DNA from: Polycladomyces zharkentensis
GTDB lineage: Bacteria > Bacillota > Bacilli > Thermoactinomycetales > JIR-001
DNA: 64,000 bases
Direction: 5' to 3'
Assembly (NCBI RefSeq): GCF_016938855.1
Contig: NZ_JAFHAP010000004.1
Coordinates: forward strand, 62,001-126,000
Positions 11,176 through 16,712 of the stretch are shown in pieces (the stretch's first letter is position 1; every line of letters begins with the position of its first letter). The position numbers and the translations under genes are program-made. Under the pieces are notes generated by a model. That model was given only the letters and a program-made list of their open reading frames with translations, did no database searches and was not told where the DNA came from.

Positions 11176-11436
11176 GTTCCCTCCTCCTTTGTCCCATCCT
11201 CTCTGGTAACCATATTCAGACAGGCCCCGAATCATGATTGGGTAATAGGGGAAGGGAAGAAAAAGCACCCATGGGTGTTGCTTTTCGCGCATGTTACACA
11301 AATAGCGCAAACGCTTGGAACCACAAGAGACCAGAGTTATGAAGCAGTACTTTGCATACATGCGCCGACAGTATCTGTAACTGACCTTTCAAGGGCAGAT
11401 ACCCCTAGTGTTTTCCCAAGAAAATACAGAAAGAAA
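11176..11436. other. Leader region of the P-type ATPase, no gene seen
   Basis: Nothing coding was found here. Read leftward, positions 11285-11258 hold an imperfect hairpin around CACCCATGGGTG with a run of five T after it, about 85 bases before the GTG start. It could be a weak leader terminator. I did not find the conserved parts of the manganese (yybP-ykoY) riboswitch that controls some pumps of this type. Confidence 0.3.
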
Positions 11437-11460
11437 CGGGATGCCTCCATGAGCATCCCG
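11437..11460 (-). terminator. Probable terminator downstream of the cbrC-like remnant
   Basis: Read leftward, CGGGATGC and GCATCCCG form a perfect 8-base stem with an 8-base loop, followed by TTTCTTTCTGTATTTTC. It could end the transcript of the helicase unit and the remnant. Confidence 0.45.
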
Positions 11461-11512
11461 CATCGCTGCAGTGTGGACATTCAAAAATGATGATGGTTCC
11501 CTATGGATAGAA

Positions 11513-11850
11513 TTAGTCTAAATCTGTATATAGTTTATGGCCTCTACAGTTCAGACATTGGAAGAGATAACCGCAAATGGATCCGTTCAACGCTTTCAGA
11601 AATTCATCTTCAGCCAGACGATAGAGTTCTGCTTCCTCTTTCAAAGCTTCTTCCAACACGGGATCTCCTTTTCTTAATAGCGCTTGAATTCCATCACCAT
11701 CCACGTCACCAAGAAAAGCACAAAAGTCATTGCAATGGCTGGGCCAGTATTCTCCTTGCCGTTACAATCCATCGTTTTTGTCCAGCACCCCCAGCAAAAA
11801 GCCATTAAAACCTACGAAGAAGTGCTTTATGGCCTCAAGGATTTTTGCTT
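11513..11850 (-). pseudogene. Decayed CbrC/UPF0167-family gene, C-terminal part
   Basis: The last 63 codons (11513-11704) read like the C-terminus of CbrC-family proteins: a GDPVLEEALK helix and then ICGYLFQCLNCRGHKLYTD, with the typical cysteine pair. The frame continues upstream through EYWPSHCNDFCAFLGDVDG, as in the family, but is interrupted by TAA at about 11771-11773 just before RQGEYW. Further upstream another frame offers a CWGCW segment and no start. The gene is therefore broken and lacks its N-terminus. The function of this family is poorly known. Confidence 0.5.
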
Positions 11851-11957
11851 AACTTTACTGCATTTACGGTAAAGGTCGATTGCAGGTAAGACAGGGGGCA
11901 CTTTTGTTGTGAATGAGGGTGTATCTGGTTGTTGCCGGTTCAGCAGAAGGATTTCGC

Positions 11958-12425
11958 CTATGTTTTTGGAAGTAAAGCGCAAGGAAAAGAGCTCATACCA
12001 GATAGTTGAATGGATGAGACACAAAACGAAACGATGTTGTGATATGCCTTCAAAATGGTGCTGATGATATCCATCACCGCACTGATGCATTGTCCCAGTG
12101 CGGAACTCGCTGAAATCAAACCCTTCATTTCCATTAATTCTTTGTTCAGTTTGCGCAGTGAACCTTTTTTGATGGAACGTTCCTTCACATTTGCCAACAC
12201 GTCATCAATGTATTCGACGGCTTCCTCTTTCCTTTCCCCATCCAATTGATCTGTTCGTTTCAATTCGTTGAGAAGTTGTTCCAATCGTTGATACAACTGG
12301 CCCCATTGATCTTCATGGCCGTGGTAAATATTTTGTGTTACATTTTGGGTTCCCTTCCCGTAGTTGATAACGAATTGACCCTTGTTATGATGAACTTGAA
12401 TATGGCGATCAGCCACAATAACCAC
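11958..12425 (-). CDS. Small helical protein paired with an SF1B helicase, N-terminal motif shared with the helicase
   Basis: This 155-residue protein does not belong to a family I can name firmly. Residues 8-33 form a strand-like Asn/Gly/Gln-rich segment (HIQVHHNKGQFVINYGKG, then TQNVTQNI). Residues about 36-125 are predicted to be helical, with a coiled-coil-like part (WGQLYQRLEQLLNELKR), a linker (DGERKEEAVEYIDDVL) and a second helical pair ending in a hydrophobic stretch (ALGQCISAVMDIISTIL). Proteins with a Gly/Asn-rich strand before such a helical domain are common in bacterial conflict systems. The ATG is 12 bases after the helicase stop and its ribosome site (AAGGGTGG) lies in that gap, so the two genes are coupled. 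The N-terminal segment aligns without gaps with the last 25 residues of the helicase. Confidence 0.7.
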   Translation of the reverse strand: MVIVADRHIQVHHNKGQFVINYGKGTQNVTQNIYHGHEDQWGQLYQRLEQLLNELKRTDQLDGERKEEAVEYIDDVLANVKERSIKKGSLRKLNKELMEMKGLISASSALGQCISAVMDIISTILKAYHNIVSFCVSSIQLSGMSSFPCALLPKT

Positions 12426-12437
12426 CCTTTCTCATGA

Positions 12438-15400
12438 TCATTTTCTGATGTTCTGTGTCGCCACGATCTTGCCTTGATCTTGTGCGATCAACACTTGTCC
12501 CTCATTTTTGTGGATATGGATGATCTGTTGAACGATGGTGCGATCCTGCATGGAGAAGGAATCGCGACGGGTTCGCATGCGTCGGGTCAGATGCGGCAAC
12601 AGACGATCATTTTGATAGGAAACAGGAATTTTATTCTCCGGCTTGTACAAGAGACTTTTCAACAAATGGGACGGAGTGCCGGGGATCAAGCCGAACTCCT
12701 CCATATTGCCGAAGACGAGAAAGCTGTCCTTCGCCCGGGAAACGGCCACATTCATCATATTGAGATTCCGGTCGTAAAAGGGCTTGCCAGACTTGGAACC
12801 AACCACGGGCGAAAACAGGACAATATCCTTTTCCGCCCCCTGCAAAGCATGAACCGTGCCGACAGTGATGTCTGAAATCCCCAATTCCTTCAACAACTCG
12901 CGAATCAAAACGGTCTGGTATCGAAACGGAGTGACAATTCCCAAGATGTCTCCAATGGCTTTCCCCGAAATGTGTTCGAGTTTTTCACGATGATTCCGAA
13001 TCCAACCAACGATGGCTTCGGCTTCTTCAACATTGAACTTTCCCCTTCCTCCGGCGTCTTTGGCTTCCCCCCTGATGTCGGCATATCCCAGATGCGGGAG
13101 AAAGTCGTATTTTTTCTCTGACGGACGCAATGGTTGCAAATCGCCGCCATAAGCGAGGAGGTTGCAGTACCGGATGATCTCCGGTACACAACGGCGGTGT
13201 TCGGAGAGGAACATACCTCCGAACCGTTCGTTCTTCCGATATTTGCTTCTCCGTTGAGCGATCCTCATGACGCTTCCGAGGGCTGCTGTCACGCCCTTCT
13301 CCTCGATCTCCTCCGCTTCTTTCAAATCGGCGATCACACCGGTTCCCAAAAGATTTCCGTGATCCACGTCCCGGGTTACTGAGGAGATGGGCTCGATTTG
13401 CATGGTATCTCCCACCACCAACGCTTTTTTGGCGAGGGAAATCGCCGGGACGGCCAAATCCGGAGAAACTTGCCCGGCCTCATCGATGATCAGCAGGTCG
13501 ATGAAACCCGTCAGATACCCCGATTGGTATTTTTTCTTTCCTTGGTTCACGACCGGATCGTACACGCAAAACCACTTCGGCAGCATATGAAAAGTGGCGA
13601 CAAAACACGGAGTCAGTTTGGCGTATCGCCGCCATTTTTTTCTGGTTTTCCGGCTGGATTTGCTCTCTTGATATCCTTTGGCAATTTGCTCTTCCATCTC
13701 CATCAACCATTTGGCTTCCCAATAGTGAGTGGCGAGACGAAAAGCCAAGTACCGAAGGCTGGTATCCAGTGTCTCCATGGAGTCGGAAAACGGGACTTCA
13801 TGATTTCGGCACCATGTTCGGAGACGATGTTCTGATTGACGAATCTTTTCGAGCAATTGCTGTAATTCGGTTCGCTTCGCTTCCGCCGCCTGTCGGTCGG
13901 CCTCGTGTTTTTGGATCTCCCGGTCGATGGCGCGACTGATTTCATCATTTGCAAAAGAGAAGACCTCGATCGGATGGTTTTTTTCCAGAAGAAACACTTC
14001 ATTTCGCCGCCGCCTTCTCTCGTTGATCCCGGGAAGGAAAAAGAGCCATTTCCACCACAGCGGTTCCTTGTTTAGATGTTCCGTCCAATCCCGTTTCAAC
14101 CTCACATAGAACTGTTTTCTTTTGGACGCCTCCATTTCCTGTTCTTCCCATTCTCGGATCTGTTCCGACAGTTTCTCGATCGATCCGTCGTATTCCCGGT
14201 TCAACCGTTCCTGATACGCCTGATACTGTTTAGCCAAATTCACCCCATCCCGAATCGCTTCACAGGTTCGAACAAGATCGGTTTGCAAAAGTTCCGCCGC
14301 GAATGACAGACTGTCCACCGTTGAACCCGCGTACTCAGCACACCGACTTAAAAAGTAAGTTTTTGCTTCTGCAACTTGGCTCGGCATTTCCATTTGTTTC
14401 ATGAAATCTTCGCCGTTTTCGCTGACAACATGGTACGGATGACCCGATTCCGCCAATTTCCCCATCTGTGATGACGCAGGCAGATACAAACCGTAACTCT
14501 TCAGCCCGGGAATCCATCTGCCCTGCAACTGGACCGCTTTCTTTCCCCAAACCGTCCGGGTGTCCGGTTGTTTCTCTCCCGTTTGACCGAAGCTGTCGAT
14601 GATATTGGTGATCGCTTTGTTGTTGGCCGACGTTGCGACAATTACCGGCGGATCGTCCATCCCTTTCGCTGCCGCCTCCACCCACAGCGAAGCGACCACA
14701 TTTTGCAGCAGGGTGGTTTTACCTGTTCCCGGCGGTCCATTGACAGCCAACATCTCCCCTTCATTCAGGGTGAAAAAATGATGCAACGATTCCCGCTGAC
14801 CGGGAGACAGCGGATAGACATGATTCATCTGACCGAGATGACGTTCCGATTGATCGAGACAGGAAAGAATTGGTTCATTTTTCTGTTCCTCAAGAGAAAG
14901 GTAGTTTTGCAACAGAGCAGGTAAAGTCTCTGATCCAACCAAATGCTTATACAATGCAATGAACTCTTTGTTCAGCTTTCCTTCCTGGATCGGTACCACC
15001 CACACCTGTTCACTGCGTCGATAGCCGTCGATCACAAAACTTTGCAACCGCTCGCCGATGACATGCTGAAAAAGTTTTTCCGCATAAGCAATAGCTTCAG
15101 ACCAGTTACCCTCTACGGCATACGCCGTTTGTTCGGCCAACGCGTCCAGTTGATCCAATCTGCCCAAAACCAATTCGTGGCCCACAGTCGGTTCCAAGTA
15201 CTTTCTCGGTATGTATGCGGGACGATGAGTAATCGGCAACAGTTTGCCGTCTTCCAACCGGGCCGGCAGGAATAACGGCGTGAGGATCTGGTTCGGATCA
15301 TCTGTACGTTCCAGAAAAACCGGACAAATGTGCAATTCCGCTTCCTCATCGGGGTTCATTTTGTCCTTAATCAGTTTGATGCTTTCCGCTGAGAGTTCTC

Positions 15401-15515
15401 CTTGACGAAATTCCGGTTCCGGAATATGGACGCCTTGTTTTCGATGAAAAGAATCATTGTCGCGATCTTGGAAACTACGGAACAGGTATCGCAATAAACG
15501 CTTTTCTTTTTCCAT
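12438..15515 (-). CDS. SF1B (UPF1/DNA2-like) helicase with a C-terminal motif shared with its small neighbour
   Basis: The 1025-residue protein has split AAA_11/AAA_12 helicase halves. Walker A GPPGTGKTT is at 260-268, Walker B IIDEAGQ at 676-682, the motif IV/V elements SEHRR at 771-775 and VGTVHALQGAEKD at 885-897, and motif VI NVAVSRAK at 922-929. Between the halves (about 430-620) is a long charged coiled-coil insert. The N-terminal 230 residues have no recognised domain and the start has only a modest ribosome site. The last 25 residues (HIHKNEGQVLIAQDQGKIVA then TQNI) resemble the N-terminus of the next gene product. TATAAT occurs about 35 bases upstream, with a weak -35. The location between two decayed genes and the lack of a housekeeping parallel suggest a mobile or defence-type function; this is inference. 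Confidence 0.85.
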   Translation of the reverse strand: MEKEKRLLRYLFRSFQDRDNDSFHRKQGVHIPEPEFRQGELSAESIKLIKDKMNPDEEAELHICPVFLERTDDPNQILTPLFLPARLEDGKLLPITHRPAYIPRKYLEPTVGHELVLGRLDQLDALAEQTAYAVEGNWSEAIAYAEKLFQHVIGERLQSFVIDGYRRSEQVWVVPIQEGKLNKEFIALYKHLVGSETLPALLQNYLSLEEQKNEPILSCLDQSERHLGQMNHVYPLSPGQRESLHHFFTLNEGEMLAVNGPPGTGKTTLLQNVVASLWVEAAAKGMDDPPVIVATSANNKAITNIIDSFGQTGEKQPDTRTVWGKKAVQLQGRWIPGLKSYGLYLPASSQMGKLAESGHPYHVVSENGEDFMKQMEMPSQVAEAKTYFLSRCAEYAGSTVDSLSFAAELLQTDLVRTCEAIRDGVNLAKQYQAYQERLNREYDGSIEKLSEQIREWEEQEMEASKRKQFYVRLKRDWTEHLNKEPLWWKWLFFLPGINERRRRRNEVFLLEKNHPIEVFSFANDEISRAIDREIQKHEADRQAAEAKRTELQQLLEKIRQSEHRLRTWCRNHEVPFSDSMETLDTSLRYLAFRLATHYWEAKWLMEMEEQIAKGYQESKSSRKTRKKWRRYAKLTPCFVATFHMLPKWFCVYDPVVNQGKKKYQSGYLTGFIDLLIIDEAGQVSPDLAVPAISLAKKALVVGDTMQIEPISSVTRDVDHGNLLGTGVIADLKEAEEIEEKGVTAALGSVMRIAQRRSKYRKNERFGGMFLSEHRRCVPEIIRYCNLLAYGGDLQPLRPSEKKYDFLPHLGYADIRGEAKDAGGRGKFNVEEAEAIVGWIRNHREKLEHISGKAIGDILGIVTPFRYQTVLIRELLKELGISDITVGTVHALQGAEKDIVLFSPVVGSKSGKPFYDRNLNMMNVAVSRAKDSFLVFGNMEEFGLIPGTPSHLLKSLLYKPENKIPVSYQNDRLLPHLTRRMRTRRDSFSMQDRTIVQQIIHIHKNEGQVLIAQDQGKIVATQNIRK

Positions 15516-15628
15516 CCTTTCACCTTCATTTGTTTTTTAAGTAGATTATAAATAATTTGATGTTATCTTGCACGAAAAAAGGAAAAACAGAATCACATGT
15601 AAAAAAGAGAAAACAAGGAGGAGCGAGA

Positions 15629-16487
15629 ATGAAAAAAAGCTTGATTGCCAGAAATAAAAATTACCGTTACCTTTGGATCGGTCAAACCGGCAGTATGCTG
15701 GGGGATTGGTTTAACCAAGTGGCACTTGCACAAACGATTCTGTTCCTGTCTCATTCTGCGTTGTCTGTCGGTATGCTTTTGATGTGCCGCGCTTTGCATT
15801 CTTCAAACGAAATGGTCGGAAGCCACCCCATCTTCCCGTCATCATCCCTACGTACAAGCTTTACAGGAAGGATTCCGGGAAGCGACCCGCAACCACGTCG
15901 TCCGTTCTGTTATCCTGATTGGGATCAGCTGGGGATTTGCCGGCGGAGGATATCAAATATTGATCCCTCTGCTTGGAAGCAAAGTCTACGATCTGCAAGG
16001 ATTCGGGATCGGAATCCTGTATGCGATCGATGGTCTGGGAGTGTTGACCGGGGCATACTGTTTAAAAAAATTCATCAAGGATCAACACCGTCGAGCCGTA
16101 GTATGGTATGGGGTTTCCTACCTTACCCAGGCATTATTTTTTGCTTTGCTCGCTCAAACCAACACCTTTCTAACGGGGGTTTTGATGCTGTATCTGATGA
16201 GGGTAAGTTCCGGTATCATCATCCCCCTTGACACGTATCTGTTGCAAACCCATACGAATGAGGAAGTCCGGGGACGTGTTTTTTCCCTGCACTTGGCAAC
16301 CTATGGCGGAGTGATGCAACTCTCCTATGTGGTATCCGGGTGGACTTACGAACAACTGGGAATTCCCTTGGTTGGATTGGGGATTGGGACTATTTCCTTT
16401 CTGTGCGGTATGAGTTGGCTGATACAATACAAGCGTGGAAAATTCAATTCATCACCCCGGGCGGATTCTCGAACGGTTGCAAAATAG
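15629..16487 (+). pseudogene. Decayed MFS transporter
   Basis: The first part begins with a good ribosome site (AAGGAGGAGCGAG) and reads as a typical MFS_3-type N-terminus (LIARNKNYRYLWIGQTGSML) for about 60 codons. The frame then passes without the expected next helices into a different frame, from about 15825, that reads HPYVQALQEGFREATRNHVV and continues to a normal C-terminus at 16487. The family is about 400 residues long; here the two parts total about 280. Roughly 130 residues are thus missing, and the junction is out of frame. It is transcribed rightward, divergent from the helicase. Confidence 0.75.
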
Positions 16488-16712
16488 ACCCATTAAATCC
16501 TTGGCTGGGGTCAACAGCGATCAAGTGTCGAGTTTGCTCAGCTCTCACAATAATAAGTGAATCTCCCAGCGTCATTTGGAGGCGACGGAGCATTTCACCC
16601 GTCTCACGCTCCAGGTTCACGGCAAATCGTATGGAGTCAGCAATACCAATCGTGATATACTGGACAAGATGCGTGCATACATACGGACCACATTTCAGGA
16701 AGGAGGGATACC

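Follow-up and report, generated by a model that had tools for sequence, protein, structure and literature searches.

A putative motif-coupled helicase and four-helix partner protein in the Thermoactinomycetales, compared with Mokosh and bacterial amyloid signalling

Introduction

It is a hallmark of amyloid signalling that a short terminal motif is common to a receptor and an effector encoded next to one another, and in the arrangement described for bacteria these are a NACHT receptor and a small helical partner that have such a motif in common (PMC7889193). The bacterial amyloid signalling sequences (BASS) are those of Dyrka et al. 2020, as described in the same review, which in 2021 asked whether signalling amyloids occur in bacterial pathways that are independent of NLRs (PMC7889193). 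Two other systems are close to the subject of this paper: a PLD-like domain is listed for Mokosh type II (PMC10952713) and, in Hachiman, the nuclease HamA is held by HamB (PMC12278908). In the literature that we consulted, coverage of which is incomplete, no helicase was found as a published partner in amyloid signalling.

Below, we describe a helicase gene and its small neighbour in Polycladomyces zharkentensis, both lying in a stretch of 64,000 nucleotides that was analysed as a whole and is referred to as the window (contig NZ_JAFHAP010000004.1, positions 62,001 to 126,000). The reading that we prefer, with a probability of roughly 0.6, is that the pair is a two-gene module of defence type, in which an MkoC-like helicase sensor is coupled by a motif to a four-helix partner that acts in trans and replaces a fused nuclease. 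Loci used for comparison are given by L numbers.

The helicase and its tail

12438-15515, minus strand: SF1 (UPF1-like) helicase of MkoC type, 1025 aa, without a PLD domain (PADLOC MkoC, Pfam, Walker A and DEAG)
12447-12521, minus strand: C-terminal tail motif of the helicase, residues 999-1023 (match to the N-terminal motif of the neighbour; beyond the end of tail-less relatives)

The larger gene had been called a UPF1-like helicase in a first-pass annotation made from the sequence, and this holds: the open reading frame is present at these positions, and its product matches both the PADLOC profile of MkoC, a protein of Mokosh type II (E 1.7e-295, profile positions 4-988 of 1136), and the Pfam families AAA_11/AAA_12. 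The Walker A motif GPPGTGKT occupies residues 260-267 and DEAG residues 678-681, and both are mostly invariant in the helicase alignment. The unmatched remainder of the MkoC profile is the region of the PLD domain. Pfam detects no PLD family in the window helicase, so that the protein has the helicase part of MkoC but no PLD domain at its C-terminus; PLDc_2 is found at the corresponding position in the MkoC relatives L141 and L066. As the profile match stops at 988 and PLDc_2 occurs only in the relatives, the built-in nuclease is taken to be missing from the window helicase. The C-termini of tail-less relatives correspond to about residue 953-965, from which it follows that the tail lies outside the helicase core, as an addition to it.

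The adjacent small protein

11958-12425, minus strand: open reading frame of the small partner, 155 aa, or 152 aa from the likely GTG start at 12416 (ORF, homologs)
12327-12401, minus strand: N-terminal motif of the small protein, ORF residues 9-33 (motif alignment; short low-confidence strands in the model)
12000-12314, minus strand: four-helix bundle domain, model residues 35-139 (AlphaFold2 model, family alignment)
11958-12047, minus strand: C-terminal extension absent from homologs, residues 124-152 and the stop codon (family alignment)

The small open reading frame begins 12 bases downstream of the helicase gene, in the same frame. The start of the gene is more likely to be the GTG at 12416 than the codon at 12425, because AAAGGG precedes this GTG and the homologs begin at the equivalent residue. 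In the AlphaFold2 model the protein is an antiparallel four-helix bundle, with a pLDDT of about 80-93 over most of the bundle and low confidence in the motif region that precedes it, in keeping with the earlier description of a small helical protein. No clear transmembrane stretch was found in the modelled bundle, which looks soluble, and a fold search with it returned generic four-helix matches only, including designed and other small bundles, with Z scores of about 8-11 that are common for bundles; no specific executioner fold stood out among them, a result that rules none out.

It had also been proposed that a hydrophobic C-terminal part might act as an effector or membrane-active module. 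The last helix is hydrophobic and amphipathic, but it contains no clear transmembrane segment. The last ~29 residues are without counterpart in the homologs, which end at the position corresponding to ...STILK. The hydrophobic C-terminus may thus be in part a read-through extension, the usual stop codon having perhaps been lost.

Searches with the small protein gave no match on plasmids and none in two other genomes of its genus.

The motif match

The helicase tail, IIHIHKNEGQVLIAQDQGKIVATQNI, and the start of the small protein, RHIQVHHNKGQFVINYGKGTQNVTQNI, align without gaps and are identical at 11/25 positions, as the first-pass annotation had noted: the gapless 25-residue match, the 11/25 identities and the distance of 12 bases between the genes are all confirmed. 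The Smith-Waterman score of the pair is 53, a value that none of 1000 shuffles preserving composition reached (0/1000; mean 21.2, sd 4.2). A search of the rest of the window's genome gave no further copy of the motif. The motifs are rich in asparagine (N 16% vs 4.5%), isoleucine (I 12.5 vs 6) and glycine (G 9.8 vs 4.6), and depleted in leucine (L 1.4 vs 10) and proline (P 0.6 vs 4.2). AlphaFold2 modelled neither of the motifs with confidence, nor the way in which they might pair (pLDDT under 50), and a model of the read-through tail together with the small protein was uninformative for the motifs. The similarity of the motifs to three tested amyloid-signalling peptides was not significant (3/99 comparisons at p<0.01).

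Occurrence in the order and beyond

A first search of genome contigs, with a single helicase as query, gave no matches. At a cut-off of E 1e-30 or better, the helicase is present in 18/42 genomes of the same order. Eighteen loci can be assessed at the helicase C-terminus, including L177 at a contig edge and leaving out L058, which is cut by a contig end. The first-pass annotation had pointed to recurrence of the pair in other genomes as the check on its proposal that a terminal motif joins the two proteins in the manner of BASS; the tail is in fact present in 17/18 of the assessable helicases, 15 beside a small gene and two fused to the small protein, with motif types that change together in the two partners. 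The opposite case that it had named, of tailed helicases never accompanied by a motif-bearing neighbour, did not occur. The 15 loci with a tail and an adjacent gene are the window, L042, L043, L045, L047, L048, L050, L051, L052-L057 and L177, and their small genes encode products of ~110-135 aa with the matching motif at the N-terminus. At L051 (1441-4580) the helicase is frameshifted near its C-terminus and the tail motif persists in another frame. L046 has neither tail nor small gene, and it groups with tail-less helicases in the maximum-likelihood helicase tree.

The two fusions of helicase and small protein, L044 and L049, are isolated in the helicase tree. In L044 the tail and the second motif are mismatched (score 25), and L049 has kept a single motif. 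Both losses, of the match in the one and of a motif in the other, are what would follow if the motifs had to match only between separate proteins. The second motif of L044 (1096-1485), NNLGSGNQYN, resembles NNLGSGDQFN of the fungal sigma amyloid peptide as printed in PMC8086366; this may be chance.

Motif tails were not found among 80 loci of other phyla, where the helicases are PLD-fused or bare, nor in helicases of the class outside the order, which have PLD or nothing; the tailed form is thus known only from this order. Many MkoC-like helicases (L078-L093 and others, for example in Tenacibaculum) lack both a PLD domain and a tail. The small family is enriched in the order, being present in 22/42 of its genomes as against 4/299 in the phylum, the latter count having been made at a stricter cut-off.

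Genomic setting

11277-16573, no strand assigned: variable segment with the pair and pieces of a broken MFS transporter (blastn of the window against L199)

The pair had been described as lying between decayed genes in what might be a cargo site. This agrees with the comparison with L199, from the same genus: a segment of ~5.3 kb (about 11277-16573), which carries the broken transporter pieces as well as the pair, is absent there between the same flanking genes, which are about 91% identical to those of the window and have 0.7 kb between them. The MFS transporter fragments lie upstream of the helicase at 15557-16487, in two frames, within the variable segment. The helicase/small-gene pair is also absent from two congeners, and its absence there and from the L199 site fits a defence cassette that has been gained or lost.

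Joint change of the two motifs

At least five motif types can be distinguished, namely GQ (H-x-N-x-GQ...TQNI), NYA, SIVG, SQVG and YVEGD. Across 14 pairs, tails score on average 54 against their own neighbour and 27 against the other neighbours, and the cognate neighbour ranks first or second in every row; the cognate mean of 54 was reached in 0/100,000 permutations. For each of the 14 pairs, namely that of the window and 13 others, shuffles preserving composition gave a p value of 0.005 or less, which excludes chance. Permutation restricted to within helicase clades also gave 0/100,000, as the two proteins change type jointly inside clades. These switches are from GQ to YVEGD and from SIVG to SQVG; otherwise, the motif types follow the helicase clades. 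A partial Mantel test with helicase distance controlled was not significant (r 0.16, p 0.09), so that the case for joint change depends on a few type switches and not on fine tuning. On these sequence comparisons, the coupling of the helicase to its small neighbour through matched motifs is well supported.

Other proteins beside the small family

Elsewhere in the order, members of the small family often stand beside another protein with a matching motif. At L179 (4754-8281) and L181 (1270-5214) these are NACHT/Sel1 receptors, whose N-terminal motif matches the adjacent small protein of four-helix type; judged by their sequences, these two pairs are BASS-like, and they lie in this same order. 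The NACHT/Sel1-type motif match at L180 is weaker than those at L179 and L181. Membrane proteins with a matching motif are found at L182 (4054-5084), L178 (3563-5080, two motif-bearing membrane proteins in a row) and L191, and a further one with a motif, judged by eye, stands next to a family member at L184 (4656-6457); one of those at L182, L184 and L178 is TcaA-like. Cas4-like proteins at L190 (3066-4882) and L192 (2922-4900) have a PDC-M14B-like domain and a C-terminal motif that matches the small neighbour. The Cas4-like gene of L192 adjoins type III CRISPR-like genes. Other proteins with a matching motif are present at L183 and L185. No matched neighbour was found for the small-family members L186-L189 and L194.

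Possible mechanism and alternatives

We suggest that sensing would consist in the binding of the helicase to foreign, aberrant or damaged nucleic acid, or its translocation on it, and that this engagement would gather or expose the helicase tails. The tails, as a beta motif rich in Asn, Gly, Ile and Val, would then template the matching motif of the partner to give a common cross-beta assembly. The four-helix bundles clustered in this way would act, probably as the executing part, so that the helicase would raise the alarm through recruitment of the small protein. The steps are not equally secure. There are strong grounds for inferring that the two motifs bind one another. The cross-beta or amyloid nature of the assembly can be proposed with moderate confidence, templating of this kind being likely because of the composition of the motif, its position and the parallel with NACHT receptors. 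Execution by the bundle and an anti-phage role are proposed with moderate to weak confidence; the former is the weakest step of the mechanism, and for an anti-phage setting the match to MkoC gives indirect support.

The foremost alternative is a fixed complex held together by beta pairing. The motifs would in that case pair into a permanent, soluble and heteromeric beta structure (solenoid-like), which is not a switchable amyloid, and the small protein would be a fixed subunit, scaffold or restraint, with the helicase doing the work. The fusions L044 and L049, which tolerate lasting joining, are compatible with such a complex, as are the soluble-looking bundle, which resembles designed and other small bundles in a generic way, and a gene order and spacing that suit a stoichiometric complex. 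We nevertheless think it rather unlikely. The pattern is hub-like, in that short motifs of one kind link the small family to NACHT receptors, to membrane proteins and to further proteins, and short terminal motifs common to a neighbouring receptor and effector are what is expected of amyloid signalling (PMC7889193).

Alternatively, the small gene might encode what was once the C-terminal domain of a fused helicase and has since been split from it, with the motif duplicated at the split and no signalling implied. The existence of fusions would agree with this, as would the position of the two window reading frames, in the same frame and 12 bases apart. It is improbable, however, since separate genes are the common state (15/17) and the tree shows the fusions as isolated cases, the small family also stands beside unrelated motif-bearing proteins, and a mere split would not explain why the motifs still match after several switches of type. 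Finally, two short N/G-rich stretches might look alike by chance or because of their biased composition, but this idea has next to nothing in its favour and is refuted by the shuffle and permutation results given above.

Motif-coupled signalling by the helicase and its partner, if correct, would have wider consequences. Many relatives have a fused PLD nuclease and the window helicase has a motif-recruited partner, which suggests that defence helicases exchange effectors. A broader proposal, which we rate at somewhat short of even odds, is that one shared family of four-helix partners is engaged, through a prion-like matching code that needs no NLR, by a nucleic-acid helicase as well as by several other proteins; assembly for signalling in trans would replace a covalently fused nuclease, and the same helicase sensor would exist in a form with a built-in weapon and in one that signals to a partner. 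The helicase/small-protein pair is a concrete, testable candidate for an NLR-independent signalling amyloid, and natural variation provides about a dozen matched pairs that could be swapped to probe specificity.

Comparison with known systems

The helicase of Mokosh type II, MkoC, is homologous to that of the window over nearly its whole length (profile 4-988). MkoC, however, has a C-terminal PLD domain, in place of which the window pair has a motif tail and a second gene. As the PLD domain is absent from the protein, we do not file the pair as Mokosh type II proper.

The likeness to BASS lies in the short matching terminal motifs of the products of adjacent genes, in the existence of several motif families and in the small helical partner; the small family of the window pair, moreover, also pairs with NACHT receptors. 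The differences concern sensor and partner alike. The sensor in BASS is an NLR with an N-terminal motif, which among the loci discussed here is found only in the relatives L179 and L181; the sensor of the window is a helicase with a C-terminal motif. BELL is a helical bundle with a transmembrane helix and a C-terminal motif, whereas the small protein here has the motif first and the helices after it, and is without a clear transmembrane helix. Because sensor, motif order and partner architecture differ, the window pair is not filed as BASS.

The small protein also matches the second half of PDC-M14B, from the PADLOC candidate system PDC-M14 (153-265, E 7.3e-13), which contains a motif followed by the same helical domain. 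PDC-M14B has in addition an N-terminal domain and a cysteine-rich partner gene, neither of which is present in the window pair, where the small protein begins at the motif and its neighbour is a helicase and not an M14A-like gene. With Hachiman (HamAB), the pair has in common a helicase sensor coupled to a separate acting partner; the coupling differs, in that HamA is a nuclease held by HamB and here a short matched motif couples a four-helix protein. The window pair is therefore best called motif-coupled signalling with a helicase sensor.
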